This document shows positions 1,936 through 64,000 of a stretch of DNA of 64,000 nt, piece by piece. The DNA is from Aphelocoma coerulescens. Lineage: Eukaryota; Chordata; Aves; Passeriformes; Corvidae. How positions within the stretch are numbered: the first letter of the stretch is position 1; each line of letters starts with the position of its first letter. The position numbers were made by a program, and so were the translations under genes. The DNA lies in the NCBI RefSeq assembly GCF_041296385.1, contig NW_027183575.1, forward strand, positions 157,187 through 221,186, written 5' to 3'. Below the pieces are notes generated by a model, which made no database searches, had not been told where the DNA came from, and was given only the letters and a program-made list of their open reading frames with translations.

Positions 1936-1970
1936 AACGAATTCTTTTGCTCCCCATCCCCCTGATTCAG
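1936..1970. other. Breakpoint where the 39.3-kb tandem unit begins inside gag
   Basis: Sequence from 1970 rightward matches 41269 rightward, where the same bases lie inside the gag gene of a full-length provirus. Left of 1970 the two loci are unrelated: cctgattca precedes here, ttctaaag at 41261-41268. The 34 bp from 1936 to 1969 separate the tRNA-Arg LTR from the breakpoint. Only two G residues are shared at the join, so homology there is minimal. Confidence 0.8.
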
Positions 1971-1973
1971 GTC

Positions 1974-2363
1974 TCAGCCTTTTTTCTCTTCTGTTTGCTT
2001 TTCCTCTGCGGTTTCTGATATTTTGAAGACTTTGGTTCCCAGAGGTTTTGTAATTCCTGTCCAGCAAGAAGCATATTCTCTCTCCTCAGGGTGAGATGGC
2101 TCTTTTGAATTTACAAATACATTTAGAGCCTGGCAAATCCATGCCTCATCAGACCCGTATTTTGGCCAGTACACATGATCAGATCTGATTTCCTTTTTTA
2201 CCCACTCTTTCATGCAGAATTGAATCATTTTTACTTTCTCTTTTCCTTTTGTAGAAGGATCAGTTTCCCAGTTTGCGAGTTTGACCCCGAGGGGACTGTC
2301 TCGGGGTATATCCTCTGGCACCCTTTTATAATTTGAACTTAATTTACTAGGTTGTTGTCCCAT
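1974..2363 (-). pseudogene. gag: gag N-terminal fragment (matrix), truncated
   Basis: This 129-codon open frame starts MGQQPSKL, with a glycine at position 2 as expected for an N-myristoylated gamma-like matrix protein. It ends at a TGA at 1974-1976, and provirus sequence stops four bases further on at the breakpoint. The frame is identical to 41273-41662 in the full-length provirus, where the same TGA interrupts gag. Capsid, nucleocapsid, pol and env are absent here because the tandem-unit boundary cuts the provirus. Confidence 0.85.
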
Positions 2364-3254
2364 TTTCCCAGGAGTTCTCTATTACTCAAAATACCAATTT
2401 ATCCCCCCCTTTGAAATACTAATTCATTCCTTTAAAACACCAATCTTCACTGCTGTAAAATACTACCCACCCTTTCACAGTACAAAAAACACCAAAAAAT
2501 TTATTAGAGCCCACCTTCCCCAAAAACAAAGTTAACTTCGAATTACACAGTTTTTCATTCACACATTCACTCTTTTTTAATATTTGTTCACTCACTCATT
2601 CCTACTCACAACAGAATAATAAGGTACCTCTTTCAAGTCACTTGTTAGTATCCACCCATGGGTATGATATAATCCTTAGGATTCTGGGTGCTCTTGGATT
2701 TCCCTCAACCCGGCATTGCTAGCATCCAAACCCCAACCTCTCTTGGGGTACTTTTAGGCCCTGGGTGCTCTTGGAGTTTTCCTCAACCCAGCATATGGGG
2801 GGGTAGCTCCCACTTTGCAACCCCTTCTCTGGGACCCCGTCCCAGTCACCCCCGGAGATTCTTTCACTCCGCTTATCTCTTGCTTTGTCTCCTCGCTGGC
2901 CGCTGTTCTCGTGAACAAGACGGAACGGCAGCACTCAGAGACTGCCACACTCGCTTCGCAGATCTGGGGGCAACCAGCCCACGTCTCATTCACACACGCT
3001 CATCTCCCGTAACCACCCCCTTTTTCTTTGGCAATACTTCCCAGTCCTGTTTCTTTTCCAGTGTCTGTGGGATTTTTGTCGAGAGCGCTCTCTTTCATTT
3101 GCTTTATTTTTGTGTCTTTCTTGTCCTCCGGGTGTTGCCCTGCTGCCACCAAATCACGCCAGAGGATGCTAAGCAAAGGTCCTGCCAACTTGGGCGGGAG
3201 GCGCCTTACCCTTGCTTCTTGAATCCTCCCACGCTTTTCAGAGGCGAGGTGTAG
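2364..3254 (-). other. 5' leader of the gamma-like provirus (truncated copy)
   Basis: This untranslated proviral leader of about 0.9 kb lies between primer site and gag start. It contains two diverged copies of a segment beginning ctgggtgctcttgga (about 2684 and 2760 on the plus strand). It matches 41663-42554 with a one-base indel near 3030/42331. Packaging signals would be expected here but none can be assigned by eye. The short frames on both strands look incidental. Confidence 0.65.
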
Positions 3255-3272
3255 CTCCGGGACGAGCCCTTA
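3255..3272 (-). promoter_or_regulatory. Primer binding site, tRNA-Pro-like (decayed)
   Basis: The minus strand reads TAAGGGCTCGTCCCGGAG just after the LTR. It agrees at 14 of 18 positions with the classical gammaretroviral tRNA-Pro site as I remember it; two of the four differences are G-to-A at the TGG start. The same bases occur at 42555-42572. Confidence 0.5.
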
Positions 3273-3274
3273 AT

Positions 3275-3931
3275 TGTGAAAAACGAGGTTCACTCTCCTG
3301 TGAGAATTTAAAGGGTTTAATATAAAGACAATAAGAGACACATCAAATAAAGCAACGGGGTAATGGCCGGGTGCCTTGGTGCTCTGCCAAGAGCACACCT
3401 GATGCCAGAGGTGAGTCTTTTTTATACCATTTTTACTGTCTGTTCTTTATTCATATTAAAACTTTTCCTGGAGCTGTTCTGCATGGCCACTCCTTGGTTC
3501 CGCCTTTTTAGAGCATGCGTAGTCTTCTGCCTTGTGGTTTTATTTCTCTTGATTCTTGGGGTTGGGCCCGCTAGGCAAGAGTCGATGGTAGGGTGGATTT
3601 CTTAATTCTCCAGACAGACAGGGCTGATTGCAGCTTTGGGCCTCTTCGTCTCTCCGGGCAGAGTGGTGATAACGGCTCTTGGACTCTCCTGGCCGCCTGT
3701 TCTCCGGGCGGAGTAGCCTTTGGGCCCTTTTGCTCCCTAGACAAAGTGTTGATTAGCAGCTTTTCGGGCCTCATCCTCTGTTCGTTTGGAGGTTATCTTA
3801 CGTGCTCACACTTGTTAACATTCTTGCTAAAAAGAGAGAAAACTACATCCACACAGCAAAAAGCATTTCTAACATTATATAATATCTACTTTATACTTTG
3901 CGAGAAGCCAATATAATATATGTTTATAACA
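3275..3931 (-). mobile_element. 5' LTR of the gamma-like provirus (tandem copy 1)
   Basis: This 657-bp LTR runs from TGTTATAAAC (right end) to CA (left end) on the minus strand. It has a TATA box (GGTATAAAAAAG, about 3419-3430) and an ATTAAA signal near 3315-3322. By eye it is identical to 42575-43231 and differs at about 23 sites from the 3' LTR at 33136-33793. It belongs to the provirus that was cut by the tandem-unit boundary at 1970. Confidence 0.9.
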
Positions 3932-4639
3932 CCTCCATTGGCGACCTCCTTTTCCCTCTGATTCAGCTACCTTGTGGTAGGTGCGATGGTGCTGAAGAAG
4001 GGTGGCGGCTTGGCACAGTTGCTGTCACAGGTGGATCTTTGAGTGGCATGTGTGAGGGTAGGAGGGTACGGCACCCATAGCTGAAGGCAAAAAAGGTCAG
4101 GGCATGTCATCAGCCGCAGTCGTGCTAAGTTGTTCATCTATGCAAACTGCTTGCCGAGTTGTTCCTTTCTTAGGTAATGGGGGCTTGTATCAACCAGAAC
4201 TGCAAATGGTCAGTATTTGCAGAGAAGGTTACTTGGACTGTTGTTGAAGTGAGTGTAGCAGTTTCTATGGCATTCTGCAAAAAAAGTGACAGGTCTCCCT
4301 GTGTTCCCCAGTTCTTAACAAAGATGAAGTTAACAAACCCCTGAAAAGAGGTTTTGCAAAACTTCAGGGATATTTTCCTACTAGTACTGTAGAGACAACC
4401 ATAGTCACCTTGTCTTTCCAAAAGTGAAGGTTCCCTATTTTTGTCCAAGAGCATCAAGTGCTTTTGATCAGCGTTTGTGTGCATGCATTAGCCTCGTTCT
4501 TGCTCTTCCTTGGAGAACTTTTACAATACTCACATGATCTGTGTAGGCTGCAGACTGCAGTGGTGAACTTCAAGGCTTCCAGCAGAAGGGAGATGCTGTC
4601 CACGTTTTGGATTCTCCTTAGCCTGAACCTTCAATGTCC
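3932..4639. repeat. Outer end of a palindrome right arm (belongs to a preceding unit)
   Basis: This is the reverse complement of 10195-10922 in the left arm and is repeated at 43232-43939. It is the part of a right arm lying outside the provirus. It lacks about 20 bp present in the left arm near 10800-10825. Similarity stops after the bases ccttcaatgtcca at about 4628-4640. It holds one 104-codon minus-strand frame (4170-4484) shared with the other arm copies. Confidence 0.88.
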
Positions 4640-4829
4640 AATAACGCAGCGTTTGGTGCTCGAGGCACTGACTCTGGCGTGCCCCTGGTCAGAGACAGTC
4701 CAGCTGCGTTACCTCCACGCGTCGCTGAAGCGACTTCGGGATCAGGAAAAGAGCTTGCTGGGCTAGCTAGCTGGCTTCTTTGCAGAGGGAAACACGGCAG
4801 GAGCCGTTGATGTCGGCTCACGTTAGCTC

Positions 4830-5035
4830 AGAGACAAAGGAAGAGAGGGGCTGTTCAGGTCTGGCTTCTAACAGGTTTAATGCGATAGGATGAGGATGAG
4901 GTCGGATTGATGGGAATCCGCTCCTCGGAGCCTTGTCCTCAGTTTTATAGGGAATTTGAAAACCCCCTGTAACTATTCCTGAAAAGACCTGCCTTGCTAA
5001 ATTAGTGCCTTTTAAGTCTTGTGTCCCCAGGATAG
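4830..5035 (-). mobile_element. LTR fragment, minus strand
   Basis: On the minus strand there is a promoter-like TATAAAACTG (about 4943-4952) followed about 65-70 bases later by the signal ATTAAA (about 4876-4881), the usual LTR order. The U3 side is short or truncated against the pol fragment that begins near 5036. The termini are uncertain. The 190 bases to its left (4640-4829) hold nothing I recognise. The copy in unit 2 is at 44130-44335. Confidence 0.45.
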
Positions 5036-6046
5036 AACAACAAACTCACAAAGATAACAGCAGTGGATCTACAGGACTTCTGCAGGCCTTCTGGACTGCA
5101 GACATCTCTGACCAAAGGCCACAGATGACGTGTACCCTGATCCTGCCGAACGCCCGTCCGCCCTGGACTCAGCTTCAAGGTTTGATTGATACTGGTGCTG
5201 ATGTAACTATCATCTCCTTCTCTGCGTGGCCTCCCTCATGGCCTTTACCCCCAGTGGGATCGGCCATCACAGGATGAGGATGAACCACACAGAGCTATTG
5301 AAGCGAACGGCCTGTGACGGTGAAGGACTCAGAGGGGCACACAGCTACAATTAGGCCTTATGTTACTACCACTTCCCTTAACCTTTGGGGACGGGATGTG
5401 TTGGCAGCCTGGGGCATACGGATCGGGACAAATTTTTAGCAGGGGTCACTGTGCGCAAAGGTGCACAGTATCCTACACTGCCTTTGCAGTGGTTGATTAA
5501 CACACCAATCCGAGTCAGACTCTGCTTAGTTAGTTGAATTAAGGGCTGTTATCATGGCTTTTCAACGATTCTCACAGGAACCTTTGAATTTGGTTACTGA
5601 AGCCGACTAGCAAAAGCTCGTATACAATTAATCACCTTACGGTACCACAAAATTCAAAGAATCCTGTTCTTCTGAATCACTTTCTCTCATTGCAATCTGC
5701 AGGCAAGAGACAACTGCCCTGGGCAAAAGTCTGGGTGTGGAATTTACTCACTAACCAGTGGGAAGGCCTGCGGGAACTTATGGTTTGGGGTCGTGGCTAT
5801 GCTTGCGTTTCTACAGATACTGGGGTACGGTGGCTAGCTGCAAAATGTGTTCGCCCTGCCCTACGGCACCAGAGGCAGAACAGGCAACCTCCAAATGATG
5901 ACCAGAACACCAACCATCCAAGTGGCCACCAGAATGTAGATCATCAGCCATCAGACTCTTCTGATGATGACCAAGATGTTGACCATCAGGCAGATGGTCC
6001 TTCTACAAGCAGAGACTGGGATGGTCCTTCCACAAGCAGAGACTGA
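5036..6046 (+). pseudogene. pol: Class II (betaretrovirus-like) pro-pol remnant with internal deletions
   Basis: The frame at 5005-5277 contains the aspartic protease motif LIDTGADVTII. After stops and frame changes the C-terminal protease motif WGRDVLAAWGIRIGT follows (about 5380-5440), then an RT N-terminal segment (VRKGAQYPTLPLQW, about 5450-5495). Next comes an abrupt jump to an RNase H-like piece (AFQRFSQEPLNLVT, about 5553-5600). The frame at 5690-6046 is the integrase C-terminal DNA-binding domain (LLTNQWEG, WGRGYACVSTDTG) with a Gln/Asn/Asp/His-rich tail. Most of RT and integrase is deleted and gag and env are absent. This is a dead remnant, copied at 44336-45346. Confidence 0.8.
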
Positions 6047-6162
6047 ACTTTAAATTTCTTGTTATGGAGTCAGATCGTTAAAGCCTTAAGGACATATTTA
6101 GAATTAATAACTGATGTAAATTTCTATTTAGGATTAATAGTGGAGTTGTTATCTTATCAAAC

Positions 6163-6578
6163 AAAAAGGGGGAATTGTAGATACCAAAATGCTGCTAGCG
6201 AGGATTTTCTTGCTATTTTCTAAGTCTGTGAGAGACTTTTCTCTCTCACAGAAGAGGTAGCAGAGTATGTAAACAACCAAGCCACCTGCAACCTTGAAAA
6301 GTCTGGTTTATGGTCTAGTAGAAAAATATTTTGACAATGGATGGTTTAGGATTTTAGCCAATCACCCCAAGGGGGGGGGCTGATCCTTTGTCCAATTAGA
6401 CTATGAAGAAAAAAGTCTGTAAAAGAGTTTGTGAAATAATTAAATGAATAAATCTTGGTGCACAATTCCTGCCTGCTGGATCTTCTCTCCTCCTCCTCCC
6501 TATGGCTGCGGGACACAGTGATACACCCTAGGGCCCAGGCCTGCGGTAATAGACCACAATTACAAGTGAACTGCAACA
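6163..6578 (+). mobile_element. Polypurine tract and 3' LTR of the class II remnant
   Basis: The polypurine tract AAAAAGGGGGA (6163-6173) is followed by an LTR starting TGTAGATACC at 6176 and ending near ...GCAACA at 6578, about 403 bp. It contains an AATAAA signal at 6447-6452. Plus-strand order (integrase, polypurine tract, LTR) matches the pol remnant to its left, so it is the 3' LTR. The exact 3' end is uncertain because no target duplication can be checked. The unit-2 copy is at 45463-45878. Confidence 0.75.
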
Positions 6579-9500
6579 CAAGCAGCTAACACATTCCTCC
6601 TGTGATAAATGAGTGAACGATAAATTTTGTCTTTCGCATCTATCACTTTAACATTTAGAAGTGAGAATGTACTATGTAGAAATAGTGTTAAGGTAAAATA
6701 TAGGTAAGTAAAAACAAGACTAGAGTAAATTGTAACTTCGAATGAGTGGTAACATGTTGGGAAACGTAGGAAGAAACACATGATAATAAATGTCCTTTAA
6801 GTTGAGAAATTACAGAGGTGGAAACCAAGACATCTTCAAGAAACAAAGAAGATAAACCGCATGCATCCCAGGAAGTCTGTTATCTCATCAAAACTCACAC
6901 CTCCCAAAGAACCCATCAACTACAAATTAGGTTGGAGACTGAGGAGGCACCGGAGGGGGGTGCCTGCCTTCAATTCTGGAGCTACTCAGAGGACCGAGGT
7001 GGCAGTGTGCTGGCGTGTGCTGGCGCAAGGGGGCAGAGACGGAGGGGGGAAAGTTGAGTGAAGTGTAAATGACTTTCTGGGCTTAAGGACTATGTTTAAA
7101 GAAGTACTAAAGTTCACAGTAAAATGAATGGAGCCACGCCTCTAGCAATATTGCTAAGTGCTCCTGCACTGTGATATGCCTTTGTTCTACTAATAAATGC
7201 TCAATATTATGCTGCTGAAAATTCCGCTTGGGAATTCATCTTTCTCACTTCTTCCCTTAAAATCAGTTCTAAGAATTTAGTGTGAAATACATTTAGGCTT
7301 GGTCCACATTATTTTTAGTTCAAATAAACACATCTAAATTTTTTCCATCTTTCCCATTAAAGGATTTTGGTTTTGGCTCATTCTTTCAGCATTTTGCCAG
7401 CAATCTGCTCAATGCTCTTTCCTTAGGAATGAAAGCTGTAGCCTGATATTACAAAGTGTTTGGTGAAACCTTTACCATGACTCTCAAGTCGCAACATGCC
7501 AGATAATCACTGGTTTTCAAAGCTGCTTGAAGATAGAAGGAAAGCGTCAAAGGTTTATGCATGAATCAGCATCCCCTTGTCACAACGTCATGCTGCAGTG
7601 ATCCTTGCAGAGCTCTAAGACTGGATTTAAAGGAGAAAAGCTCAATACTGGCTCCTGAGCCAGCAGGATGAAACATCCAAGATTGTACATATATTACTTC
7701 TGTGCTAAAACTACTGTATGAAAACGTCTTACCATTATGGCAGTTTTATAGTACTCCATAGGAGACATCTCTTTAAATGACTCTAATATCCTTTCAGTGC
7801 TAAAATTGAGAAGGGGGTTGATCCATAGTTAACTCATGTAAACACGAGTGAACTACTAAGAGACAGCAAATGTTAATCACAAAACCTAAGCAGCAGGATT
7901 CGCCTTAATCTTGTCAAGATAAGAGGAACAGGATCTTTTGAAAACCGGCACAGAGATCGCTGCATCAGCCACCGAAGAACTGTGCATGCTCCAGAAAGAA
8001 AGGTAAAAAGTGCATTGTGACAAAGACTACTGATCTTCATCAGAAAGACCCTCGAGGAAGAAGAGGAGCCTTCCTCAGTGCGCCCATCAGCGTACACAGC
8101 GCATGCATGGCACGTATGCTAATGATATTAATGACTTCCGAGAAGTAATTTCTAGAACCACTCCTATCCCAAGAATTGTGATGAATGTTCATAAATTTTA
8201 CACATAATGCTGGACTGTATGGAGTGCTCTGTGTGTGTGTGTTAGGAGGAGTGATCCCCCATGCACCCAGCGCCGAATAAAGCAAATACCCGCTTCTCTG
8301 ACTCTGAAGCATCTCTAGGCCTGGTTTTGGGCAATTCAAAATAGGTGAATACACATTACAACTACAGCTGAAGTTGTTGCATAGGCAGATTGAAGAGGAA
8401 AGGATTTCATCTTCATCACTCTCCTTCTTTCTTGTTTTGACAGAATTAAGAACTTGTAAAAAATCTGATATCACTGATGCTCACCACTCTTCCAATTAGA
8501 CTACGCTCACTTAGGCAACGAAGTCCAGAGCTTCGGATATCTCCCGCTTCTGCCCTAGGAATTGCTTCCAGTGCTGTACCTTTGCTCCAGCTGCGAAACC
8601 AAACCAGCAGAACCAAGGAAGTTCTCTCTGAATGAACCATTGCTCTTGAAGGCTACAACGGTAGTCATGGCAGTGAACACTGCTCTTCACTGGGCCATTC
8701 CTCTGAAAAAAAACCATGCACCACCTCTCAACCTAAACCGTTAAGCCTCCTGCTGATGCTGACTGACAAAGCGTCCAACTGCACTTAGATTCCAACAGCT
8801 ACTTCCAATGACCTGTCAACAGAGCTTTGCAGACTTGCAACAGAGCAACAAACTAAAGGGGCTATGTTTCATGGCTGTTTTTCAAACATCATTGACTTAT
8901 GTCCCTTTGCCAGCTTAAGTGAAGGTGGCCCATCCACCTTGGTCAAAATCAGCAGAATTTTGGCCCAATTTGTTGTTACGCAACACATCATGACACAATC
9001 TCTTGGTGTTGATGCAAAATTCCCACTGAAGTGCATGTCGTTACATGACTTAAGGCTACCTACTCACAGAGTGTCCACTCCACTGCCACACCCATTTTCT
9101 GGCCACCTTGAAATGACTGAGCTGTCTTACTGTTCCCAACATTCCTCAGGGGTACGTGACCACCATAGCCTCCCTTCTGAAGTTTAGGAACCTAAGTAGT
9201 ACTAGCAATAGCAGTTTATCCAAAATCCATTTGCTCCATCAACAAACTCCGAGCAAGCGCTGAGAATTAGTTTCAAGACTTCTACATATATTTACAGGGA
9301 GCTTTTTGTTTGCTTGTTTGTTTTTAAAGCAGATGGAGTAGTGCGATGTTTCCCTGAGGCTACCAGGGCTGCGAGGCAGGCAGGCAGAGCCCTGGCATGG
9401 GTGGCACAGGGGACCCCGGGCGCTGACGGCTGCCACCAGCGCAGGCCAGCTCGGAACTGGCAGGCAGGGCTGCACCCCGCGTCTGCCACAACAGCTGCAG

Positions 9501-10194
9501 CTTCTGCAGCCTGAAACACAGCTGGCTCAGGGGTTCAAATTAAGAGCCAAAACCTTTTGCTGCTCAATTTGGGGCAGAGAAAGGTCATCACTTCTAGCAT
9601 GGCATAAGCCTGCCACTACATTTCTGTGAAGGAAAATCACCTTGTTAGAGTGAAACTCCTGAGTAAAATACTGAAGCGCTTTCAGATTCGTATTATCTGA
9701 CATTTCTGTGACCTTCTTTTATACCTGCATTGTTTCCTACTGCTGGTTTTGGGCACAAGTTCTGTGTACACTATTCTGGAAACAAAAAAATAACCCAAAA
9801 CCAACACCCACTCCTCCCCCACCATCACTCCTTCCCCAGCCCCAAGCCTAACAAAACCAGCCTGCAGAATGTGCAGGATTTCAAATGAGAACAAGCATAG
9901 ATGGGACATCAAAAGATGGATTCTCCTTAGACATTTGTGCATGCAGTGCTCTGCAATCAACTCCTAAATTCTACTCCTCGTACACCAAATATTTGTCTTG
10001 GGAACTCCTTGTTCTCCATTCCAACCCTTCTGAGAGGGTAATCGAGGAGTTACTCTACATATTTTAAGCACATGTTGCACTAGTCAAATCCAATGCACAG
10101 CATTACTTGACTAACTGAGGCGGTGGCAAGGTCAATTAAGACCTGTTCATGTCTTAATTTGGAGCTCTTCCAACTGCTTGAAAAGTGAAGCCTT
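6579..10194. other. Unidentified spacer sequence between palindromes
   Basis: This 3.6 kb of mixed-composition DNA is not part of the palindrome and is repeated at 45879-49494. Frames up to 144 codons exist (8040-8474 minus, 8864-9187 plus) but show no domain. A splice-acceptor-like pyrimidine tract ending gacag lies at about 8420-8443, followed by frames that close quickly. A short TG run is at 8231-8241. It may be host intronic or intergenic DNA. Confidence 0.6.
6790..7260 (+). mobile_element. Possible degraded LTR-like element
   Basis: An AATAAA signal at 7192-7197 lies in a context resembling a retroviral R/U5 region, with a GC-rich block upstream (6940-7060). No termini, primer site or polypurine tract can be fixed, so this is a weak suggestion only. 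Confidence 0.22.
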
Positions 10195-10349
10195 GGACGT
10201 TGAAGGTTCAGACTAAGGAGAATCCAAAATGTGGATAGCATCTCCCTTCTGCTGGAAGCCTTGAAGTTCACCACTGCAGTCTGCAGCCTACACAGATCAT
10301 GTGAGTATTGTAAAAGTTCTCCAAGGAAGAGCAAGAATGAGGCTAATGC

Positions 10350-10664
10350 ATGCACACAAACGCTGATCAAAAGCACTTGATGCTCTTGGACAAAAATAGG
10401 GAACCTTCACTTTTGGAAAGACAAGGTGACTATGGTTGTCTCTACAGTACTAGTAGGAAAATATCCCTGAAGTTTTGCAAAACCTCTTTTCAGGGGTTTG
10501 TTAACTTCATCTTTGTTAAGAACTGGGGAACACAGGGAGACCTGTCACTTTTTTTGCAGAATGCCATAGAAACTGCTACACTCACTTCAACAACAGTCCA
10601 AGTAACCTTCTCTGCAAATACTGACCATTTGCAGTTCTGGTTGATACAAGCCCCCATTACCTAA
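10350..10664 (+). CDS. Unidentified 104-codon open frame in the arm's outer segment
   Basis: The frame starts MHTNADQKHL and ends FWLIQAPIT. I do not recognise the product. It has no signal peptide, membrane segment or known motif. It is intact in all four arm copies in the window (here, 4170-4484 minus, 43470-43784 minus, 49650-49964 plus), but these copies are almost identical by recent duplication, so this is not evidence of selection. It may well be non-coding. Confidence 0.2.
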   Translation: MHTNADQKHLMLLDKNREPSLLERQGDYGCLYSTSRKISLKFCKTSFQGFVNFIFVKNWGTQGDLSLFLQNAIETATLTSTTVQVTFSANTDHLQFWLIQAPIT

Positions 10665-10918
10665 GAAAGGAACAACTCGGCAAGCAGTTTGCAAAGATGA
10701 ACAACTTAGCACGACTGCGGCTGATGACATGCCCTGACCTTTTTTGCCTTCAGCTATGGGTGCCGTACCCTCCTACCCACAAACATGCCACTCAAAGCTC
10801 CTTGCGTGGAGCTCTCGCACCACCTATGACAGCAACTGTGCCAAGCCGCCACCCTTCTTCAGCACCATCGCACCTACCACAAGGTAGCTGAATCAGAGGG
10901 AAAAGGAGGTCGCCAATG

Positions 10919-10922
10919 GAGG
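10919..10922. other. Empty (pre-integration) site of the provirus in the left arm
   Basis: In the right arm, sequence matching 10923 leftward to the axis side ends at 33135, and sequence matching 10922 outward starts at 43232, with the provirus between. The four bases gagg here (cctc on the other strand) appear as cctc right of the provirus and tctc left of it. This is a 4-bp target duplication with one substitution, the length typical of gammaretroviral integration. Confidence 0.75.
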
Positions 10923-10959
10923 GAAGTTGTACCCCCTGACAGCTAAGCTCCAACTACGG

Positions 10960-11880
10960 TGTCGCTTATGTCCTTCCCAGGACGGGCGGGAAAACGCCTC
11001 GGCGCAGCGCAGCGCTGGCCGGGAGCGGCCGGCACGGCACCGAGCGCGCTCCCCACTCCCTCCCGCCCGCGCCGCTGCGGAGACCCCGGGTTCGCCGGAA
11101 TCGGCCACATGCTGCACGGAGGGCAGCGCGGCAAAGGCGGCCTCCCCTCGTCGCCCGGGGAAGGCCGGCCTCGGATCCCCGCTCTCTCCACCGGCACGGG
11201 CAGTGCCAGCAGCCTCTCGCTGTGGCCGCCGCTGGCCGAAAGCCTCGCCGCGCACCGCCCGGCCGGCCCCGCCGCTCCGCGGGCTCACACGGCACCTGCC
11301 GTGGGCGGCCGCCGAGCGACAGGAAGCAGAAGCGCTCACCGCCGCGCCGCTCGCCGCCCCGCCCGGGCGCTCCTCTCCTCGCGCTACCACGATGGCGCCG
11401 GCCCGCCCCGCCTTCCCCGTCGCCTGCGGCGCAACGCGGCTGCTCCGAGCCACGCAGCACGCGTGCGGCCGGGCCCTGCCGAGCTGCCGGCGGAGCCGGG
11501 GCACAGCCCGGGCGGGAGAGCTTCCGGCGAGGCTGGGCGGGCGGCGAGCGCGGCCGAGCGTGAGCGCGCCAGGCGGGCGGCGGGCGGCGGCGCGATGGAG
11601 AGCTAGATGGAGGCGGCAGCACCGCGCGGCATAAAATAGCTGATCGTCCGGCAGCCGCCCGCTCCGCAGCCCCTCGGCTGCTGTCGAGAAGGGCCCCGGC
11701 CCTGGCCGCGCCGGTGGCGAGGCGGCTCCGCAGCCCGCGGGCAGCCCTGGCGGGGCAGGGGAGCACTGCGGGCAGCCCCGGGGCCGCGCAGCCGTCTGCA
11801 ACGCGCGGTGGGAGCCGCTGGGAACTATTTTACACGTTCCGGGGGGCTGGAGAGGAGCACGGAGACCACGCGGCAGGTCG
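10960..11880. promoter_or_regulatory. CpG island, left arm
   Basis: About 0.9 kb of very GC-rich DNA is dense in CpG, with many GGGCGG/CCGCCC-type boxes, in an otherwise CpG-poor neighbourhood. A YY1-like ACGATGGCGCCG occurs at 11389-11400; its ATG opens an arginine-rich 80-codon frame to 11634 that I cannot identify. Long frames on both strands here are expected from GC content. Retention of CpG suggests an unmethylated, promoter-like element. Copies are at 32174-33094 (inverted) and 50260-51180. Confidence 0.75.
11630..11637 (+). promoter_or_regulatory. TATA-like element at the inner edge of the CpG island
   Basis: CATAAAAT lies in GC-rich sequence and points toward the palindrome axis. 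A transcript starting about 25-30 bp downstream would cross the outward-facing deleted provirus in antisense. Inverted copy at 32417-32424 (minus); tandem copy at 50930-50937. Function is inferred from sequence only. Confidence 0.35.
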
Positions 11881-11926
11881 CTGCCGTTAGGGAAAATTAA
11901 TCCACGATGCCTGAGGTTTATATCCG

Positions 11927-12386
11927 AAAAGGAGACAGAGGAGTCCTGCAACATTCTTCGACTACAGGGAGAGTCCATGGGGCTTTTCCCATGGCGTCTG
12001 TCAAACGGTTGCGGGATGCAGCCCCCTTTTGATGCCAAGTTCCCGGCCACAGCACCCTCTTCCTTTTCCCCACTGGCTGAGGTATTCGGGAGATACAGAC
12101 TTCCGGAACTGCCTACTCTATGCGCCCCCCTCTAATATGCACCCCCCTCTTGGCATCGAGAAGAAAGAAAAGAACCCCATTCCTAATGCTCTTAAGTCTT
12201 TGTTGCCTTGCTCTAGGTTCAGGAATTTAACACGGCCTTGATTAATCAACAGTCTCTGATGATTAGTAACAGTTCTAGAGAACTCCTAGTTTCTTCTGTT
12301 ACTTCACTAGCCATAACTTCCTAGCCTTGTCTACAGGCCGATTCACACGGTCTCTTTGTAAAGACTCATCCATCTCATTCCTTTTA
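11927..12386 (-). mobile_element. 3' LTR of a deleted gamma-like provirus (left arm)
   Basis: This LTR of about 460 bp aligns throughout with 15592-16028, with many substitutions and indels, so the two form a diverged LTR pair. A polypurine tract (AAAAAGAGGAGGGA, minus strand, about 12388-12401) abuts its right end, which identifies it as the 3' LTR. Its outer end lies about 45 bp from the CpG island. Termini are placed from where the two copies stop aligning. Confidence 0.75.
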
Positions 12387-12599
12387 ATCCCTCCTCTTTT
12401 TATTTGCTCTGTATTTGTCTTTACAAACCTTAATTACCATGGATTTAATTTTTTCTTCTGGAGTCTTCTTGGGTTTTGCTATTATTTGCAGTGACATTCT
12501 TTTCTGTCCTTTTGTAGTCATTTCTGGATCAGGTAGGCATGGCTGCTAGCGGCATCCCCTTGAGCACCTGCTGAAAGAGCTGCCGCCAGCATGGTGTCA

Positions 12600-14045
12600 C
12601 GCATGGTAAAAAGATGAGAGTTGCTATAGCATGTAAGAGGAGGAATCGTATTCATTTAGCCCAGAGCTGGCCAGTTAACCATGAAAACATGTCCCATCCC
12701 CATCCTTTCAACATTTGGACAGGTCCACGAGCTGACGTTATTTCCTTTGTTATTTGTTTGACCACTTTTCCGCTGTCATCTGCTTGCAAACAGCAGCTCG
12801 AGTCATTTAATTTCCCACAAACTCCTCCTTCTTCTGCCAACAGATAATCTAATACCATCCAATGTTGAAATACCGCTTTCCTCATTTAAGTGGGTTGCTC
12901 AGCAAAAAGGTCAAGCGCTGTGGCTGGCTGGTTGGTAATTATTTCCGAGACAGCTTGTAACCTAATTATCTCCTTCAAATGATAAATGGGTTCCCAGGCA
13001 TCTGGGATTAATTCCTTAGGTTTCCAAGGGGCTGGTCCATCGTGTTGGGTAACTTGTTCTGTTGGCCGTTCATCATTTCCCCGTTTTGGGGTGCTCCCTC
13101 CAGCCAGGGCTGCATCAGCTGACTGCTTTTCTCTAATTAAATCATCACAGATTTTGATTCCTAAGCGATTTCCCAGAACTTGTAGTAGCAAAAAGAACAA
13201 CAGTCTACTAAATATACCATATCCCTGACCAGTTTGGAGGTAACCTGAGCTAAGCATGTTGGCCACAAATCCAATACTGTCCTTTCAAAGCCCGTGTTCC
13301 ATTAGCAAAGGAACCTACCCATGGTCATCAATTGGTGGCTCAAAATACAGCAGGATTCCCGGGCCTAACGGTCCTCCAACAAGAGTTGCCCCACCATAAG
13401 GGTCCCAGCATTTGCATTTCCAAGCTCCCGCACAGGGTTCCCACCTACATTTACATCTGCAAGCTGCTTGGTTGGATTTGGAGCAGAACTCACTAAAAGG
13501 CTTTGAGTTCCAATCCGGTGTGGCCATTCCCACTGATAATCACAAACAACATGTCTTCTACTTGTGGAATTTTTGTGGGGACTGCTCAAAAACAGGTGGT
13601 CAAAAAAACCCCTTGTCCCTCCCCATTGCTTTACAGGCTTCCAAATATTTTTGGTAAGTGTGATAAGAACGCCTTACGCAGCTACTGTTAGTGAGCCGAA
13701 CAGGTATTTGATTGCATTTGCCTTGATATTTGGAACAATTGGAAGGAGGGCAATTGGGGGTCCAAACCCAGTTGATCAAGCCCAGAGGGAAAGTCAATTG
13801 ACAATTGCCTTTTCCTACATAGACACGCCCTATCCTATTTAGGCAATAAGTGCCTGTTGGAGAAGAATGAAGTGGCCATGAACTTCCTTCTTTGGCCCCA
13901 AATCCCATCCCACTGTGGCCCACACAATGACCCACCATTTAGGTTCAGCTGGGCTAGCCAACTATGGCCACTCTTCAGATCCTCCTGGCCCTCCACAGAG
14001 CCAGCAATTGCTAAGGTTAAAAACTTTTGCTACTTCTTCTCCTAA
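12600..14045 (-). pseudogene. env: env remnant of the deleted provirus (left arm)
   Basis: The minus strand carries a broken gamma-type envelope. A surface-subunit-like segment lies at 13938-13600, cysteine-rich frames at 13589-13315, a further stretch at 13266-12886, and a transmembrane-subunit piece at 12885-12652. The last contains [12 protein letters not shown] and a CC pair with seven residues between the first Cys and the CC. Frames are split by stops and frameshifts, and the cytoplasmic end decays before the LTR. Copies are at about 30009-31454 (inverted) and 51900-53345. Confidence 0.75.
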
Positions 14046-14561
14046 GGCTGCAAATTGATTCTCCCACTCCTGGCCTAAACTCAGCTGACCATATCAAAGT
14101 AGAATTAGTAAGGAAAATGTTTTAATAGTGTCATCTAATTAGCTAGTCTAATTTTCCCGTTGTCTTCTGCAGCACCTGTGGCAATTGAAGACACAGAAAC
14201 CACTTAACGTAACAAAATGGCCACAAGTATTAGCCCCCAAGTGAGTGGAGATTCTAGAGGAGGGATGCCTATACAGTCTATTTCAGCAGACGGTCTGAAG
14301 GTAGGACTGCGGGGCTTCTTCCGATGTCGAAGCACTGCCTACTGCTCCGGCCCACTCCTGCAGAGTGTCAGTCACGGCCTCCCGGCCTTCTCCTCCAGCT
14401 GAGATGTGCAAATCTCCGAGGCTTCAGAGACCTTGACCCGAGAGTGACGGGTTCACCTGTGTTCAGCTTACTTGACGGCTGTTTTCTGTCGTCAGTGACA
14501 CTTGGAATGGGCCACGCCATTTCACCAGCACTGGCGCTTCTTTCTACTCCTTAATTAGGAC

Positions 14562-15252
14562 TCAATCTCCTGGTTGGATGTTAAAAGCAGCAAAGTCCAA
14601 AGGCCGGGCTTGCGCCAGCTGAGTTTCCTGTTGAAGGGGTTTCACAAGAAGCAGGATCCTGGCCACAGATGGTTTTAAAAATGCATCACTTGCCTCTACC
14701 CCCCCCACTGGGTGGAGACTTACCAGGAGGGCAATTGCAAACAACGATTGAAAGGGAGATAACTGAATCTCTCTTCTGGGTTGGGCCCTCATTCTCACCA
14801 AAGCCAATGTCCAAAGCCCTACCCATGGCATCTTGGTTTCTATTACCAGCTTCAAAAGGTGTTTATTTCTCTCTTCATTGTTTTCTACCCGAGCCGAGCT
14901 CTGGGGGTGCCAGGGCCTATGGAGGTTCCATTGTGTTCCTAAAGAAGCCAAAACCCCTTGAAGGATCTTTCCTGCAAAATGAGTTCCCCTATCTGAATCT
15001 ATTGCTTCTACAATGCTGTATCTTGGAATGATTTGTTCCAAAAATGCCTTAAGAACTGATCCTGTCATTACTGAAGTAGTTGGAAATACTTCTGGCCACC
15101 TTGCTAGCTGACATACGATTACCAGAAGATATTAAGCCTTGCCACTTGGGGCATCTCCGGAAAATCCACCTGGCATCTTTGGAAGGGCCATGCAGCCCAA
15201 GGCCTCCCTCCTCTAGCAAGTTACTTTGTAACTTGGCTGTTGGCTTTAGCAC
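14562..15252 (-). pseudogene. pol: pol remnant: integrase (left arm)
   Basis: The 168-codon frame 15068-14562 contains the integrase core motifs DSDRGTHF and HRPWHPQSSARVE, that is the second Asp and the Glu of the DDE triad. The first Asp segment (QVDFPEMPQ, about 15170) lies upstream in a different frame interrupted by a stop near 15130. The frame then reads into a C-terminal domain remnant. The RNase H, RT, protease and gag sequences expected to the right are missing. In tandem copy 2 the C tract at 14699-14706 is two bases longer and shifts the frame. Confidence 0.78.
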
Positions 15253-15591
15253 AGATCAAGCAACCTTCAACAGCTCCTTTTGCCAGTCTAAAAAGACCCC
15301 CAGCAACATACATCATGAGATAGGCTTCTGCCAATCCTCAGGAAGTGCAAGAACTCTCTTAATGGAGTTGCTTTAATATTGGTAGGGCCAAAGGTTCTGG
15401 TATCTCTTGTTTGCCATCCCTTGGAAACCAATTCTTGCCTTTTTTCTCTGCCACACGACTTTTAACTGTATGTCAAACTGCTGCGGTAGAAAAGACAGCT
15501 TCCTGGGGCAGTGATGGAGTCACGGGGAGCAAAGGGGGCATCTTGGAGAGTTCTGGCAGAAGTGTGGCTTTCTGAGTTTCTTCATCCACCA
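15253..15591 (-). other. Unassigned internal sequence of the deleted provirus
   Basis: These 340 bases lie between the integrase remnant and the 5' LTR. No retroviral motif is readable. The 5' leader end, just left of the LTR, reads GGTGGATGAAGAAACTC on the minus strand; it is in the primer-site position, but I cannot match it to a tRNA. Confidence 0.5.
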
Positions 15592-16028
15592 AAAAGGAGA
15601 CAGAGGAGTCCTGTAACATTCTTCAACTCCAGGGAGAGGCCATGGGGCTTTTGCCATGGAGTCTCTCAAATGATTGCGGGATGCAGCTCCCTTCTGATGC
15701 TAAGTTCCTGGCAACAGCACCCTCTGAGGTACTCGGGAATTACAGACTTCCGGAACTGCCTACTCTATGCCCCCCTCTAATATGCACTCCCCTTTTGGAA
15801 TGGAAAAGGAAGAAAACCAAACTATTCCTAATGCTAGGAAGTCTTTGCTGCCTTGCTCTAGGTTCAGGAATTTAGCAGGGCCTTGGCTGAGCAACAGTCT
15901 CTGTTGATTAGTAACAGTTTCTAGAACGAATACTTTCTTCTGTTACTTCCCCCCCTGTAAATTCCTAGCCTTGTCTAAGGAGAGATTCACACGGTCTCTT
16001 TGTAAAGACACATCTATCTTACTCCTTT
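15592..16028 (-). mobile_element. 5' LTR of the deleted gamma-like provirus (left arm)
   Basis: This is the LTR partner of 11927-12386 (shared segments include ggagacagaggagtcctg and cttccggaactgcctactct). It lacks a 17-base segment near 15727 that the 3' LTR has. Divergence between the pair is visibly greater than between the LTRs of the full-length provirus, so this element is older. Confidence 0.75.
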
Positions 16029-16098
16029 CACGCCCACACCTTCCTTGCGGTGGAACGGCTCTCCCCGGCACAGCACCTGGCACAAAACCCCCGTATAC

Positions 16099-16156
16099 GC
16101 ACACACACACCTGCACTTACCCTGCACTCCACTGCACACACACACACACACACACC
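16099..16156. repeat. CA microsatellite
   Basis: Two (AC)n runs at 16099-16110 and 16134-16155 lie in C-rich DNA. Length differs slightly from the inverted copy near 27901-27960. The tandem copy is near 55401-55458. Confidence 0.9.
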
Positions 16157-16429
16157 TCCCGCACACTAACACCCCCTCCACACCCCCACCATGCTACTTG
16201 CAGTGGCCCCGCCCCTGCCATCCCCACCGGCTGGCAGCACCCACTCCTCGCATGCTTCCCCATGCCTTGCATTTCCTTGCTGCCCCCTCTGTAGCCTTCC
16301 CTCAACCTGCCTTTTCTCCCCTGCCTTGCACTGACTTGCTCACCCATCCCCCACCTGACTTCCTTTCACATTCGTCTAGGTCTGGCCTCACCTTTCCTTT
16401 TCCTTCTAGGACCCTCATTGCCTTGCCTC

Positions 16430-33806: not shown

Positions 33807-33810
33807 TATT

Positions 33811-42554: not shown

Positions 42555-42572
42555 CTCCGGGACGAGCCCTTA
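42555..42572 (-). promoter_or_regulatory. Primer binding site, tRNA-Pro-like
   Basis: Identical to 3255-3272, it lies two bases after the 5' LTR. It agrees at 14 of 18 positions with the gammaretroviral tRNA-Pro site as I remember it. Confidence 0.5.
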
Positions 42573-42574
42573 AT

Positions 42575-45346: not shown

Positions 45347-45462
45347 ACTTTAAATTTCTTGTTATGGAGTCAGATCGTTAAAGCCTTAAGGACATATTTA
45401 GAATTAATAACTGATGTAAATTTCTATTTAGGATTAATAGTGGAGTTGTTATCTTATCAAAC

Positions 45463-45878
45463 AAAAAGGGGGAATTGTAGATACCAAAATGCTGCTAGCG
45501 AGGATTTTCTTGCTATTTTCTAAGTCTGTGAGAGACTTTTCTCTCTCACAGAAGAGGTAGCAGAGTATGTAAACAACCAAGCCACCTGCAACCTTGAAAA
45601 GTCTGGTTTATGGTCTAGTAGAAAAATATTTTGACAATGGATGGTTTAGGATTTTAGCCAATCACCCCAAGGGGGGGGGCTGATCCTTTGTCCAATTAGA
45701 CTATGAAGAAAAAAGTCTGTAAAAGAGTTTGTGAAATAATTAAATGAATAAATCTTGGTGCACAATTCCTGCCTGCTGGATCTTCTCTCCTCCTCCTCCC
45801 TATGGCTGCGGGACACAGTGATACACCCTAGGGCCCAGGCCTGCGGTAATAGACCACAATTACAAGTGAACTGCAACA
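45463..45878 (+). mobile_element. Polypurine tract and 3' LTR of the class II remnant, copy 2
   Basis: Identical in layout to 6163-6578: polypurine tract, TGTAGATACC start at 45476, AATAAA at 45747-45752. Confidence 0.75.
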
Positions 45879-48800: not shown

Positions 48801-50259
48801 CTTCTGCAGCCTGAAACACAGCTGGCTCAGGGGTTCAAATTAAGAGCCAAAACCTTTTGCTGCTCAATTTGGGGCAGAGAAAGGTCATCACTTCTAGCAT
48901 GGCATAAGCCTGCCACTACATTTCTGTGAAGGAAAATCACCTTGTTAGAGTGAAACTCCTGAGTAAAATACTGAAGCGCTTTCAGATTCGTATTATCTGA
49001 CATTTCTGTGACCTTCTTTTATACCTGCATTGTTTCCTACTGCTGGTTTTGGGCACAAGTTCTGTGTACACTATTCTGGAAACAAAAAAATAACCCAAAA
49101 CCAACACCCACTCCTCCCCCACCATCACTCCTTCCCCAGCCCCAAGCCTAACAAAACCAGCCTGCAGAATGTGCAGGATTTCAAATGAGAACAAGCATAG
49201 ATGGGACATCAAAAGATGGATTCTCCTTAGACATTTGTGCATGCAGTGCTCTGCAATCAACTCCTAAATTCTACTCCTCGTACACCAAATATTTGTCTTG
49301 GGAACTCCTTGTTCTCCATTCCAACCCTTCTGAGAGGGTAATCGAGGAGTTACTCTACATATTTTAAGCACATGTTGCACTAGTCAAATCCAATGCACAG
49401 CATTACTTGACTAACTGAGGCGGTGGCAAGGTCAATTAAGACCTGTTCATGTCTTAATTTGGAGCTCTTCCAACTGCTTGAAAAGTGAAGCCTTGGACGT
49501 TGAAGGTTCAGACTAAGGAGAATCCAAAATGTGGATAGCATCTCCCTTCTGCTGGAAGCCTTGAAGTTCACCACTGCAGTCTGCAGCCTACACAGATCAT
49601 GTGAGTATTGTAAAAGTTCTCCAAGGAAGAGCAAGAATGAGGCTAATGCATGCACACAAACGCTGATCAAAAGCACTTGATGCTCTTGGACAAAAATAGG
49701 GAACCTTCACTTTTGGAAAGACAAGGTGACTATGGTTGTCTCTACAGTACTAGTAGGAAAATATCCCTGAAGTTTTGCAAAACCTCTTTTCAGGGGTTTG
49801 TTAACTTCATCTTTGTTAAGAACTGGGGAACACAGGGAGACCTGTCACTTTTTTTGCAGAATGCCATAGAAACTGCTACACTCACTTCAACAACAGTCCA
49901 AGTAACCTTCTCTGCAAATACTGACCATTTGCAGTTCTGGTTGATACAAGCCCCCATTACCTAAGAAAGGAACAACTCGGCAAGCAGTTTGCAAAGATGA
50001 ACAACTTAGCACGACTGCGGCTGATGACATGCCCTGACCTTTTTTGCCTTCAGCTATGGGTGCCGTACCCTCCTACCCTCACACATGCCACTCAAAGCTC
50101 CTTGCGTGGAGCTCTCGCACCACCTATGACAGCAACTGTGCCAAGCCGCCACCCTTCTTCAGCACCATCGCACCTACCACAAGGTAGCTGAATCAGAGGG
50201 AAAAGGAGGTCGCCAATGGAGGGAAGTTGTACCCCCTGACAGCTAAGCTCCAACTACGG

Positions 50260-55400: not shown

Positions 55401-56766
55401 GCACACACACACCTGCACTTACCCTGCACTCCACTGCACACACACACACACACACACCTCCCGCACACTAACACCCCCTCCACACCCCCACCATGCTACT
55501 TGCAGTGGCCCCGCCCCTGCCATCCCCACCGGCTGGCAGCACCCACTCCTCGCATGCTTCCCCATGCCTTGCATTTCCTTGCTGCCCCCTCTGTAGCCTT
55601 CCCTCAACCTGCCTTTTCTCCCCTGCCTTGCACTGACTTGCTCACCCATCCCCCACCTGACTTCCTTTCACATTCGTCTAGGTCTGGCCTCACCTTTCCT
55701 TTTCCTTCTAGGACCCTCATTGCCTTGCCTCGCCTCGCAAAGCCACCACTTGCCTTGCCTTGCCCTTGAACCCCTCCCTTGCCTTGCATGACCTTGCTCA
55801 CCCCTCCCCCACCTGGAATTCAACACCCCTTTTCAATGACATTTCTGGGCCTTGCCCTGCCCTTTCTGCTCCTCCGAGGAATCTCAAAGCTCTCAAGCAT
55901 CTCCGGTGTTTCAGGATCCCATGAGAGGAAGACCAGGGGAGGACGCATGTTGCCACACTCATCTCTGTGGGCAGCCTTTGTCTGGGAGCAATCCTTGCAT
56001 GTCTTGAACCTTGGAGGGGCAATTCACATTTTGCCCTTGAGCTCGGGGACCAGAAAGAGAGTTCTTTTGCATACAAGGGAAGGCAGGTAGCTCAAGTCTT
56101 TTAGGTACAGAGGAGAGATGACCCACGCGGGATCAAGGCCACACAGAGCACTTGGTCCTGGCCACTTTTGTGCACCAGCAGTCCTTGAATGTACTTCTCA
56201 CCTGCCTTGCCTGGCCTTGCCTTGGCAACACAACACTTGCCTTGCCTTGCCCTGCTAGCCCTCTGTAGCCTTGCATTCCTTTGCAGGGCCCTGCCCCGCA
56301 CATGACCTGCCTACTGTTTTCCTCCAGGGCCTTGGCTTGCTGAGCCCTTCCTGTTTCTGCCTGGCCTTCCCATCAGTGGCCCTTCCTTCCTACAGCCAGC
56401 CTTGCCTCTAACTTCTGGGCCTTCTCTTGCCTACCAGTCCATTTGCTTTCCCCTCACTGCTCTGGCCTTGCCTACCTCTCCCTTGACTTGCCCACCAGTC
56501 CATTTGCTTTCCCCTCACTGCTCTGGCCTTGCCTACCTCTCCCTTGACTTGCCCACAATTGCCTGCACTCGGTTTGCAGCGCCTTGCCTGCATGGAAGGC
56601 AAGGGAAAGAGTGGTAGGCCGGGCAAAGCAAAGCCAGCAAGTTGTAGGCAGTGCGAGGCAAGGCAGACGTAGGCAAAGGAAGCAGAGCAAGGGTACCTTA
56701 AGAAGAACTAGACAAGGCAAGGCCAAGAGACTCGGAGTGCCTTTCCTTGGGAAGGCAAGGACATAG
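55401..56766. repeat. CA and CCTTG-rich tract, tandem copy 2
   Basis: This is a copy of 16099-17464, including both 61-bp units at 56433-56554. Confidence 0.8.
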
Positions 56767-61100: not shown

Positions 61101-61806
61101 TGCGGCTCGGGAGCTTCCTTCTCAGATAGACGTGCCGTCACGTTATTCACTCTCGCAGCACAATTCTTCCCAGGGAAAGCTGGAAGAGAAATAGGTAGCA
61201 GCACAGGTAGCTGCAAGTGGAACTTTTGTTTTCAACTGCTAACGTGAATCCGCAAAGAAGCGAGCGGCAGCCACGCTTCTTCTTGCAGCCTGTGCGATGC
61301 GCACACCAGCTCGGTGCTCTGCGCCCTCATTCGTATGCTCTTCGTACCATGTCGCGCTTTTCATTCTGCCGGAGTCGAAGCGTCGTCTACTTCTCTCCTG
61401 AGAGCACGGTGCCGGCAGAGAAACGCTCCGGGCTTCTGCCTCTGCCGAAACACGCCTGGGCTATCCCTCTCAGCGTTAAGTAGCACAAAATGCTGTCTGC
61501 GTTGTGGTCTTAATCTTAAGGGAAAGATTCTCGGCTTCGGCTAGCACAGAGAACTTTGCTGGGACAATACATGTGTTTTATTATCCTTTCTCGCAAGAAG
61601 ACTATGGTGCTTCTTTGGAACTGTTGGCCAGTGTAAGGCTAATCCAGCAAGTGCTTCTCTCCTGACACATTTCTCTGAGCGAGAGCTTCGGCGGACAGTT
61701 GGGCTCTGCGAAGCAGAAAGTCTGTGCTTGCACGTAGCGCTGAGGAGAATCTGTGCACAGCGCGCTCTGGATGCGTGCAGTACACACACTAAAGAGAGCC
61801 AAAGCT
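58153..61806 (+). repeat. Array of diverged repeats, tandem copy 2
   Basis: This is a copy of 18851-22500 with array landmarks at 58640, 60029 and 61238. It differs from copy 1 in clusters (near 59222-59252, 60328-60333 and 60802-61128). Several of these bases match the right-arm array, pointing to gene conversion. Confidence 0.85.
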
Positions 61807-61891
61807 CAATGTCTCAGTTCTGTCCAGCGCCGGAAATTGAGAAGAACGCAGCCCCAGAGCTCTGGGCTGGAGTGTGCGATGGTTATGAGCT
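61807..61891. other. Palindrome axis spacer, tandem copy 2
   Basis: This is a copy of 22501-22585, with one base difference seen (22573 c, 61880 t). Confidence 0.7.
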
Positions 61892-64000
61892 GTGCCGCTC
61901 TTCTGCGTGTCTACTGCACGCATCCATAGTGTACAGTGCAAGGATTTTCCTCAGCTCTCGCTCAGCGAAATGCATTAGAAGGGAAGCACATGCTAGATTA
62001 GCCATTCGTTAGCCCACGCTTTCAGTAGAGCACCACAAGCTGGGCGACGAGGAAAAGCAAAGAAGAACATCTTTTCGTCTTTGCACGATCTTCTCTGCGA
62101 GACATCTCTCCACGTCTTTGCTTCCTGCAAGGCTGTAAGGTGCGCGGTGGTACTTGGAAGGGAGAAGGCAGGTGCAGAGAGCACCGCGATCTGACGGCGC
62201 TCTGCAGGCTGTAAAGGAAAGAAAGCTACCACTTGAATATGGTGCAAATACCAATTTCCACGCGTCGCGGGTAAGCTCCGGGTAAGCTTGGTGACCTAAA
62301 ACTGGGCGCTGAGTGAGACGTAACCGAGAATCTTTCCCTTTGCATTCCGGCTCCAACGCAAACAGAATGTGATGCTACTTAGCGCTGCGAAGGAAAGTGC
62401 ATAGCCCTGGTGTGTTTGGGAAGAATCAGCAGCCTGGAGCGTTTTTCTGGAGCCTTTCTCCGCTGGCACCGTGCTCTCTGGGCGAGAAGTAGACGACGCT
62501 TCGACTCCGGCAGAATGAAAACGCGACATGGTACGAAGAGCATTAAAGAATGAGGGCAGAGCACCGAGCTGGTGTGTGCATCGCACAGGCTGCAAGAGGA
62601 AGCCTGGCTGTCACTCGCTTGTTTCCGGATTCACGTTAGCGTTTTAAAACAGAAAGTTCCACTTGCAGCTACTTGTGCTGCTGCCTATTTCTCTTCCAGC
62701 GTTCCCTGGGAGGAATTGTGCCGAGCTTTATGCTTCGAGATGCAGAGATAACAGTGGTAGATGCGGCGGAGAATGGAAATACAGAGCACAGCGGACAGTT
62801 TATGGTGCTTTACGTGAGGCAAGGGAAAGTGCAGCCCGGCAGTGCTTTTTACTTCTGGAGCATTTTGCTTTGGTAGCAGCTGCTGCAAGTGGGCAACGGA
62901 GCTGCGAGAGTGAATAACGTGACGGCACGTCTATCTGAGAAGGAAGCTCCCGAGCCGCAGTGTGTTGTGCTCAGTTTCAAGGCTGCTTGGAGGAGGGGGG
63001 TACTTGAAGACCGCCTTCTATCTCGACGCGTCCTACTGCGTGTGCTCCAGCTGCATGGACGCTGCAGCATTGAAGGTGTAGGATACTGCTTCTGGCCAGG
63101 TAGTGTGATGAATGGAAACGGCTGCGCCTTACTTTGTGAAGCAGCCAGAGCATTCTCAGCTGAATCTGCTTATGAAGCAGCTTTTGGCTGGACATTTGAA
63201 ATTCGGTCCACTGAGTACGTTAACGCGGTGCCCAGTTGCTTCGTTCTTTGCCTTCTGCGGTCTGGACAAAACTGAAGCCCAGCGATGGCTTTGCGTTTTG
63301 GCGCTCTTCAGCGCGAACACTGCACGCATCCACAGTGTGCTGTGCACGGATTTTCCTCAGCTCGACGTACAATCATTTTCTTGCTGTTTCCAGAGTCTAA
63401 ACTCTTCGTGAAACTCTCGCTCAGCGAGATGCGTCAGGAATGAGGCACTTGCTGGATGAGCTTTTCGCTAGCCAAGACTTTCAATACAGCACCACAATTC
63501 AGGCAAGAAGCAGGAGAAAGGAAGATCATCCTTTCGTCCTTCCACGTTCTTCTCTGCGAGATGACTACCCGTGTCTTTGCTTCCTGCAAGGCTGTAAGAG
63601 GCGCGGTAGTACTTAGAACTGAGAAGGCAGGTGCAGAGAGCACGGCGGTCTGACGGTGCTCTGCAGGCTGTAAAGGAAAGACGGCAGCCACTTGAATGTG
63701 GTGCAAACACAAGTTTCCACGCGTCGAGGGCAAGCTCTGGGCGTGCTGGTTGACCTAAAACTGTTCTCTGGGCGGGACATAGCAGAGAATCTTTCCCTTT
63801 ACATTTGGACGACAAGAAAGACCGAAAGTGCTGCTGTATGTCGCTGCGAGGGAAAGTGCATAGACCAGGCGTGTGTCGGCAGAAGCAGTCGGCTGGGGCA
63901 TTTCGCTGCCGGCACCGTGCTCTCTGGGCGAGAAGTAGACGACGCTTCGACTCCGGCTGAATGAAAGAGCGACATGGGTACTAAAGAGGCCGAACGAAGG
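61892..64000. repeat. Palindrome right arm, tandem copy 2 (start only)
   Basis: This is a copy of 22586-24694, array units only. The window ends before the unidentified region, the deleted provirus and the expected second full-length provirus. Confidence 0.92.

Follow-up and report, generated by a model that had tools for sequence, protein, structure and literature searches.

A tandemly repeated, retrovirus-rich palindrome in the genome of Aphelocoma coerulescens, with outer arms that appear to have been homogenised after a provirus inserted

We analysed a 64,000-nucleotide stretch of the Aphelocoma coerulescens genome, referred to here as the window (NCBI RefSeq assembly GCF_041296385.1, contig NW_027183575.1, positions 157,187 to 221,186 of the forward strand), in which a palindrome laden with endogenous retroviruses (ERVs) lies within a 39.3-kb block repeated in tandem. 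Positions 1970-24694 and 41269-64000 form a 22.7-kb direct repeat with 99.84% identity at an offset of about 39.3 kb, bearing out the near-identical tandem copies described in an initial annotation of this DNA. When aligned with MAFFT, the two units differ by 30 substitutions and three indels (seven gap columns), a divergence of 0.13%. Near-identical adjacent copies in direct order constitute a recent segmental tandem duplication, and neither the tandem nor the palindromic repeats can be due to chance because of their length and identity. The window covers one full unit and 0.58 of a second, so the "array" of the initial annotation is represented by about 1.6 units. The length of the full unit is accounted for by two palindrome arms, a centre, a spacer, and one provirus, ERV#1 (11.3 + 11.3 + 1.1 + 5.6 + 10.1 = 39.3 kb). 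Unit 2 runs on the forward strand from 43942 to 64000, with its spacer at 43942-49492 and its left arm from 49493, and is ended by the edge of the window.

The left arm of the palindrome occupies 10193-21477 on the forward strand (11,285 bp). Its partner, 11,276 bp in total, is split by ERV#1 into an inner part at 22570-33135 on the reverse strand, which aligns to 10919-21477 with 96.2% identity over 10,636 columns, and an outer end past the provirus at 43232-43941, annotated on the forward strand and forming an inverted match to 10193-10922. In unit 1, the corresponding outer end past ERV#1 lies at 3932-4641 (forward strand) and has an inverted match of 96% to the same stretch. With ERV#1 counted, the palindrome spans 33.7 kb (10193-43941), and successive palindromes are joined by a forward-strand spacer of 5,551 bp at 4642-10192. 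These measurements agree with the arms of 11-12 kb and the 5.5-kb asymmetric spacer previously proposed, but an axis spacer of 85 bp, also proposed, was not found. The 1,092 bp at the centre (21478-22569) have no inverted match on the main register, and the nearest inverted pair (22433-22502 and 22580-22649; 70 bp, 79% identity) has a 77-bp gap and belongs to a different register. A 61-bp tandem repeat of 2.1 copies (17124-17254 and 56426-56556) coincides with a point within the arms where their alignment is interrupted.

ERV#1, a provirus of 10,096 bp inserted in the right arm (33136-43231, reverse strand), had been overlooked in the initial annotation, which was silent on ERVs although these constitute about half the unit. 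Its long terminal repeats (LTRs) have TG...CA ends and lie on the reverse strand at 33136-33793 (3') and 42575-43231 (5'); in unit 1, the 5' part of the provirus, comprising the start of gag, the leader, and the 5' LTR (3275-3931), occupies 1970-3931 on the reverse strand. When pieces of the provirus were searched separately, Gag_p30, RVP, RVT_1, RNase H, rve, and TLV_coat were above the Pfam cut-off, MLVIN_C was just below it, and two further pieces gave either no match or one below the cut-off. The reading frames are disrupted by stops and a frame change. Among solved structures, the reverse transcriptase (RT) piece is best matched by a murine leukemia virus (MLV)-type reverse transcriptase. 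This piece has 288 relatives at 1e-10, and among the 120 of these listed the best match reaches 99% and the closest named relatives are from songbirds, including Hirundo rustica (77%), Zosterops borbonicus (78% over 70% of the query), and Taeniopygia guttata (57%), followed by other birds, rays and sharks, and a snake, with Hemitrygon akajei (55%) as the best ray. The integrase piece found no match in IMG/VR. ERV#1 is flanked by TCTC and CCTC, a 4-bp target duplication in which one of the four bases differs between the flanks, and the left arm of both units has CCTC once, at an empty site (10919-10922 in unit 1). On these sequence features, ERV#1 is classed as a gammaretrovirus-like (class I) ERV, with Gag_p30, an MLV-like RT, TLV_coat, a 4-bp target duplication, and TG...CA LTRs, the features that we take to mark a gammaretrovirus.

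The course of ERV#1 also bears on position 41269, which had been put forward as a unit join and a possible artefact. The provirus is continuous across this position, with the same gag frame on both sides and an in-frame stop (41273-41275) common to both units. Since ERV#1 crosses 41269 with its LTRs and target duplication at the proper ends, the join appears to be natural and no unit end lies there, which weakens the concern over an artefact.

Together, the provirus and the empty site provide an internal clock. Because the left arm of both units has the site empty, the arms were already present when ERV#1 inserted, and ERV#1 was then copied with the unit. The two LTRs of ERV#1 differ at 22 of 657 sites (3.35%), whereas the outer arms differ at only 33 of 6,201 (0.53%; 99.5% identity over 6.2 kb), a difference that is significant by Fisher's test (P = 1.7e-9) and with 2.3 kb more arm added (P = 6e-9). 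For non-CpG differences alone, the counts for LTRs and outer arms are 12/609 and 17/4,987 (P = 4e-5, with rough denominators). Arms that predate ERV#1 and yet show a sixfold lower divergence than its LTRs would have been homogenised after the insertion, presumably by gene conversion; the low divergence of the 6.2-kb outer arms relative to the LTRs of this younger insertion is the pattern that points, indirectly, to arm-to-arm conversion as the agent of their likeness. Further inward, the arms differ at 20 of 2,315 positions and then at 47 in the next 500, and the innermost 1,471 aligned bases contain 171 differences (11.6%; about 88% identity). Homogenisation thus appears to halt at the central 1.4-kb repeats.

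The comparison between units adds a later step. The 5' LTR of ERV#1 is identical in the two units (0/657), the rest of the ERV#1 part in unit 1 has one mismatch and one gap in 1,305, and the inter-palindrome spacer has one mismatch in 5,551. Identical 5' LTRs place the tandem copying, or homogenisation from unit to unit, later than the homogenisation of the arms. The identical 5' LTRs and the outer arms less diverged than the LTRs both agree with the recent amplification or active homogenisation envisaged in the initial annotation. Differences between units are unevenly distributed, with 2/7,513 in the spacer and ERV part and 26/14,502 in the arms and centre (P = 0.002), a comparison that omits the 710-bp piece at 3932-4641, bearing two of the 30 substitutions. 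Of the 30 substitutions, 17 fall in 19500-24107, an interval covering 20% of the length (P = 1.3e-5). At six of these 17 core sites, both variants are present among the paralogous core repeats, compared with 8.8% expected (P = 0.002; the expectation comes from random core sites, 296/300 of which have paralogues, and sites are treated as independent though some are neighbours). Outside the core, the count is 0/13, but at most one paralogue exists there, so this figure is no control. The core sites with both variants suggest local copying between core repeats.

No recognisable host gene had been reported in the unit, and our searches concur. When 4642-11923 and 16029-24107 were scanned in six frames against Pfam, no host domain exceeded the cut-off; only a retroviral protease, plus integrase remains, was detected (spacer, outer arm, inner arm and core). 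The stretch containing a second retrovirus, ERV#2 (11924-16028), was examined through two open reading frames (ORFs) only, and the scans could have passed over a gene that lacks a Pfam domain or whose exons are very short. Weak matches below the cut-off in the arms and core (DUF4149, Tsp36_N, and Acyltransferase) were taken as chance. The parts scanned held only retroviral domains above the cut-off, with no host gene family in the arms of the kind seen with HINTW or on the human Y. Across the whole window, there were no Rfam matches at the gathering score and no tRNA genes, and neither CR1-tail nor telomere motifs occurred in runs of two copies.

We consider it likely that the window contains a gene-poor songbird amplicon, about half of it nested ERVs, which would most probably reside on the W chromosome. 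ERV#2 would have inserted first, and the stretch bearing it would then have become an inverted duplication, giving the palindrome; alternatively, ERV#2 may have spread between the arms by conversion. ERV#1 would next have inserted into the right arm, after which the whole 39.3-kb block would have been duplicated in tandem, perhaps by unequal exchange, or the units would have been kept alike by exchange. A third retrovirus, ERV#3, would finally have inserted into one ERV#1 copy. No protein product would be necessary for this, as recombination among the repeats could itself carry the DNA along in a region that lacks ordinary crossing-over. The amplicon looks like a known, sex-chromosome-type kind of repeat and not a new system; the tandem and palindromic organisation behind the earlier proposal of ampliconic, sex-chromosome-like architecture is real, and linkage to a sex chromosome or the germline is plausible.

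Several observations weigh against this account. At their outer ends, beyond ERV#1, the arms are 1.4-1.7% diverged over 706 bp (98.3-98.6% identity), and the core is 11.6% diverged, so that homogenisation is patchy. The divergence of the LTRs could be inflated if one of them was converted from another ERV. Within the 6.2-kb piece, left-arm differences between the units match the right arm three against three and thus do not establish in which direction conversion ran; moreover, the window includes a single complete right arm, so that arm-to-arm conversion is not directly traceable. Finally, ERV-rich heterochromatin also occurs outside the W.

Bird W chromosomes are described as ERV-rich (PMC8310711, PMC11745021), with a transposon density on the W above 55% compared with below 10% genome-wide (PMC8310711). 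In the duck, the W chromosome is reported to have 38 nested-repeat palindromes of 15.2-345.5 kb, seemingly without robustly expressed genes (PMC7787181). The A. coerulescens palindrome, at 33.7 kb including ERV#1, is likewise gene-poor and transposon-built, an inverted repeat of tens of kilobases composed largely of transposable elements (arms of 11.3 kb, with ERVs at about half of the unit). Unlike the duck palindromes as described, it is repeated in tandem and has a provirus in one arm that serves as an internal clock, and its W linkage is one that we infer. The chicken HINT1W array, with 52 copies of a 5,648-bp unit containing a host gene (PMC9974502), and HINTW in galliform birds, for which gene conversion has been proposed (PMC3403216), are similar in being tandem W repeats held alike. 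In contrast, the unit described here is 39.3 kb, and neither a HIT domain nor any other host domain was seen in the parts scanned; HINT1W in songbirds is described as confined to two or three copies (PMC7692361). A W palindrome described from New World sparrows and blackbirds (Davis et al. 2010, via PMC3403216) is also from songbirds and also bears signs of conversion; it holds part of a CHD1W intron. Human Y palindromes similarly have inverted arms homogenised by gene conversion, with arms more than 99.9% identical (PMC3723533), compared with 99.5% in the outer 6.2 kb and 88% near the axis here, with no gene found.

Palindromes of sex-limited chromosomes are often credited with protecting genes (PMC3403216). 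Here, a palindrome in which no gene was found appears to have had its outer arms homogenised once a provirus had entered one arm. If true, homogenisation can be a by-product of geometry, with no gene needing protection. The pairing of a provirus with an empty site provides an internal clock independent of other species and may be transferable to other ERV-rich palindromes. Our search for literature joining the W chromosome, palindromes, gene conversion, and endogenous retroviruses turned up a single paper, on the rattlesnake (PMC9447483), which is not proof of absence.

An assembly artefact, in which the second unit is a false duplication produced from two haplotypes or from a repeat collapsed and re-expanded in tandem, seems improbable. 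A divergence of 0.13% would be compatible with two alleles and the window includes a single passage from unit to unit, but the crossing at 41269 lies inside ERV#1, where gag keeps one frame save for the stop at 41273-41275 and the LTRs and target duplication are in place. In addition, the differences are mainly substitutions (30) as opposed to indels (3) and 17 of the 30 fall in the core, unlike random error. It is possible, if on balance unlikely, that the same kind of amplicon lies off the W, in the pericentromeric heterochromatin of a dot chromosome, on the Z, or on a germline-restricted chromosome. Nothing sex-specific was found in the window, and large amplicons are reported from chicken dot chromosomes and the Z (PMC9974502) and tandem units with medians of 59 and 268 kb from the zebra finch Z (PMC13060935). 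However, the arrays in these accounts carry testis-expressed or other genes, long non-coding RNAs, or PAK3L, whereas the parts scanned here have no host domain, and the share of ERVs is better suited to the W.

A further explanation involves the two features not assigned to ERVs, a CpG island and a CpG-rich core. The island (10923-11923, no strand assigned; GC 75%, observed/expected (o/e) CpG 1.04) is present in both arms. For an ORF overlying the island, Corvus kubaryi has an 88% relative across 165 residues, in a search whose scoring was confined to the 7,986 candidates with the most words in common; of five relatives, one is named ("translation initiation factor IF-2-like, partial", Corvus kubaryi), and we read the ORF as a shared CpG island, the gene being unproven. 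The central repeats of about 1.4 kb (18903-25215, unstranded) occur as several copies in both orientations, with a CpG o/e of about 0.8 over 19300-25200; the copies are about 12-25% diverged and yet show little CpG decay. CpG sites in the core change 2.2 times as often as other sites (59/279 vs 160/1,689), compared with ratios of 16 (10/182 vs 17/4,987) and 5.9 (6/158 vs 14/2,157) in two arm stretches and about 11 in the LTRs (10/46 vs 12/609). The low core ratio is suggestive of scant methylation in the germline or of GC-biased conversion, with a contribution from saturation. ORFs of the core were rejected as genes, with no clear excess of third-position changes (11/10/17; third position 17/38, 17/44, and 29/92, the last as 33/30/29) and with gap columns affecting 13 of the 17 comparisons made among six ORFs; a protein search gave one relative, at 50%. 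The island, with its relative in Corvus kubaryi, and the retention of CpGs in the diverged core would both suit a transcribed host element, either a non-coding RNA or a promoter at the island or core, amplified by selection with the ERVs as passengers. We regard this as rather improbable, given the lack of a clear third-position excess in the core ORFs and the absence of Rfam matches at the gathering score or Pfam matches above the cut-off, and GC-biased conversion could itself preserve CpGs while saturation lowers the core ratio. It is very unlikely, in our estimation, that the core (about 18.9-25.2 kb) is a germline-unmethylated functional centre, either a non-coding RNA promoter or a centromere-like or recombination-initiating nucleation site, with the ERV-filled arms as the homology that keeps the copies alike.

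ERV#1, the two copies of ERV#2 (counted whole), and a protease-integrase piece in the spacer account for 50% of the unit. ERV#2 is old, shortened, and present in both arms (11924-16028 in the left arm, reverse strand); its LTR-like ends (11924-12384 and 15589-16028) form an 82% direct repeat, with an rve domain at 14565-15131 and an ORF at 12889-13284 that has no Pfam match. The spacer contains a betaretrovirus-like protease (PF00077, 4.1e-15) and the remains of an integrase C-terminus (PF00552, 4.5e-5, above the cut-off as an ORF). The solved structures closest to the protease are of Gag-Pro-Pol proteases, among them 3sqf and 1nso, which we take to be from Mason-Pfizer monkey virus. Because the protease lies closely upstream of the integrase remains, most of pol seems to be missing.

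The tandem homology begins at 1970, which had been taken as the start of the unit but is probably the edge of an ERV#3 LTR nested in the unit-1 copy of ERV#1, and no unit boundary; it may instead be a misjoin or a real edge of the array. The probable 5' LTR of ERV#3 (1409-1969, reverse strand) is a block of 561 bp bounded by TG...CA, in which TATAAA lies at position 190 and AATAAA at position 505. It is adjoined by the probable leader and 5' part (1-1408, reverse strand), in which two ORFs tested had no Pfam match, and one LTR edge is in view, the other end of ERV#3 and any target duplication lying beyond the window. The leader starts next to the LTR with TTTGGCGAGCC, which resembles a primer-binding site. 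Two short stretches of the ERV#3 LTR resemble the spacer at 7984-8295 in the opposite orientation (E 9e-5 each), and the spacer may therefore contain a related LTR. Within the probable ERV#3 part, positions 260-318 form a nearly pure 59-base run of T.

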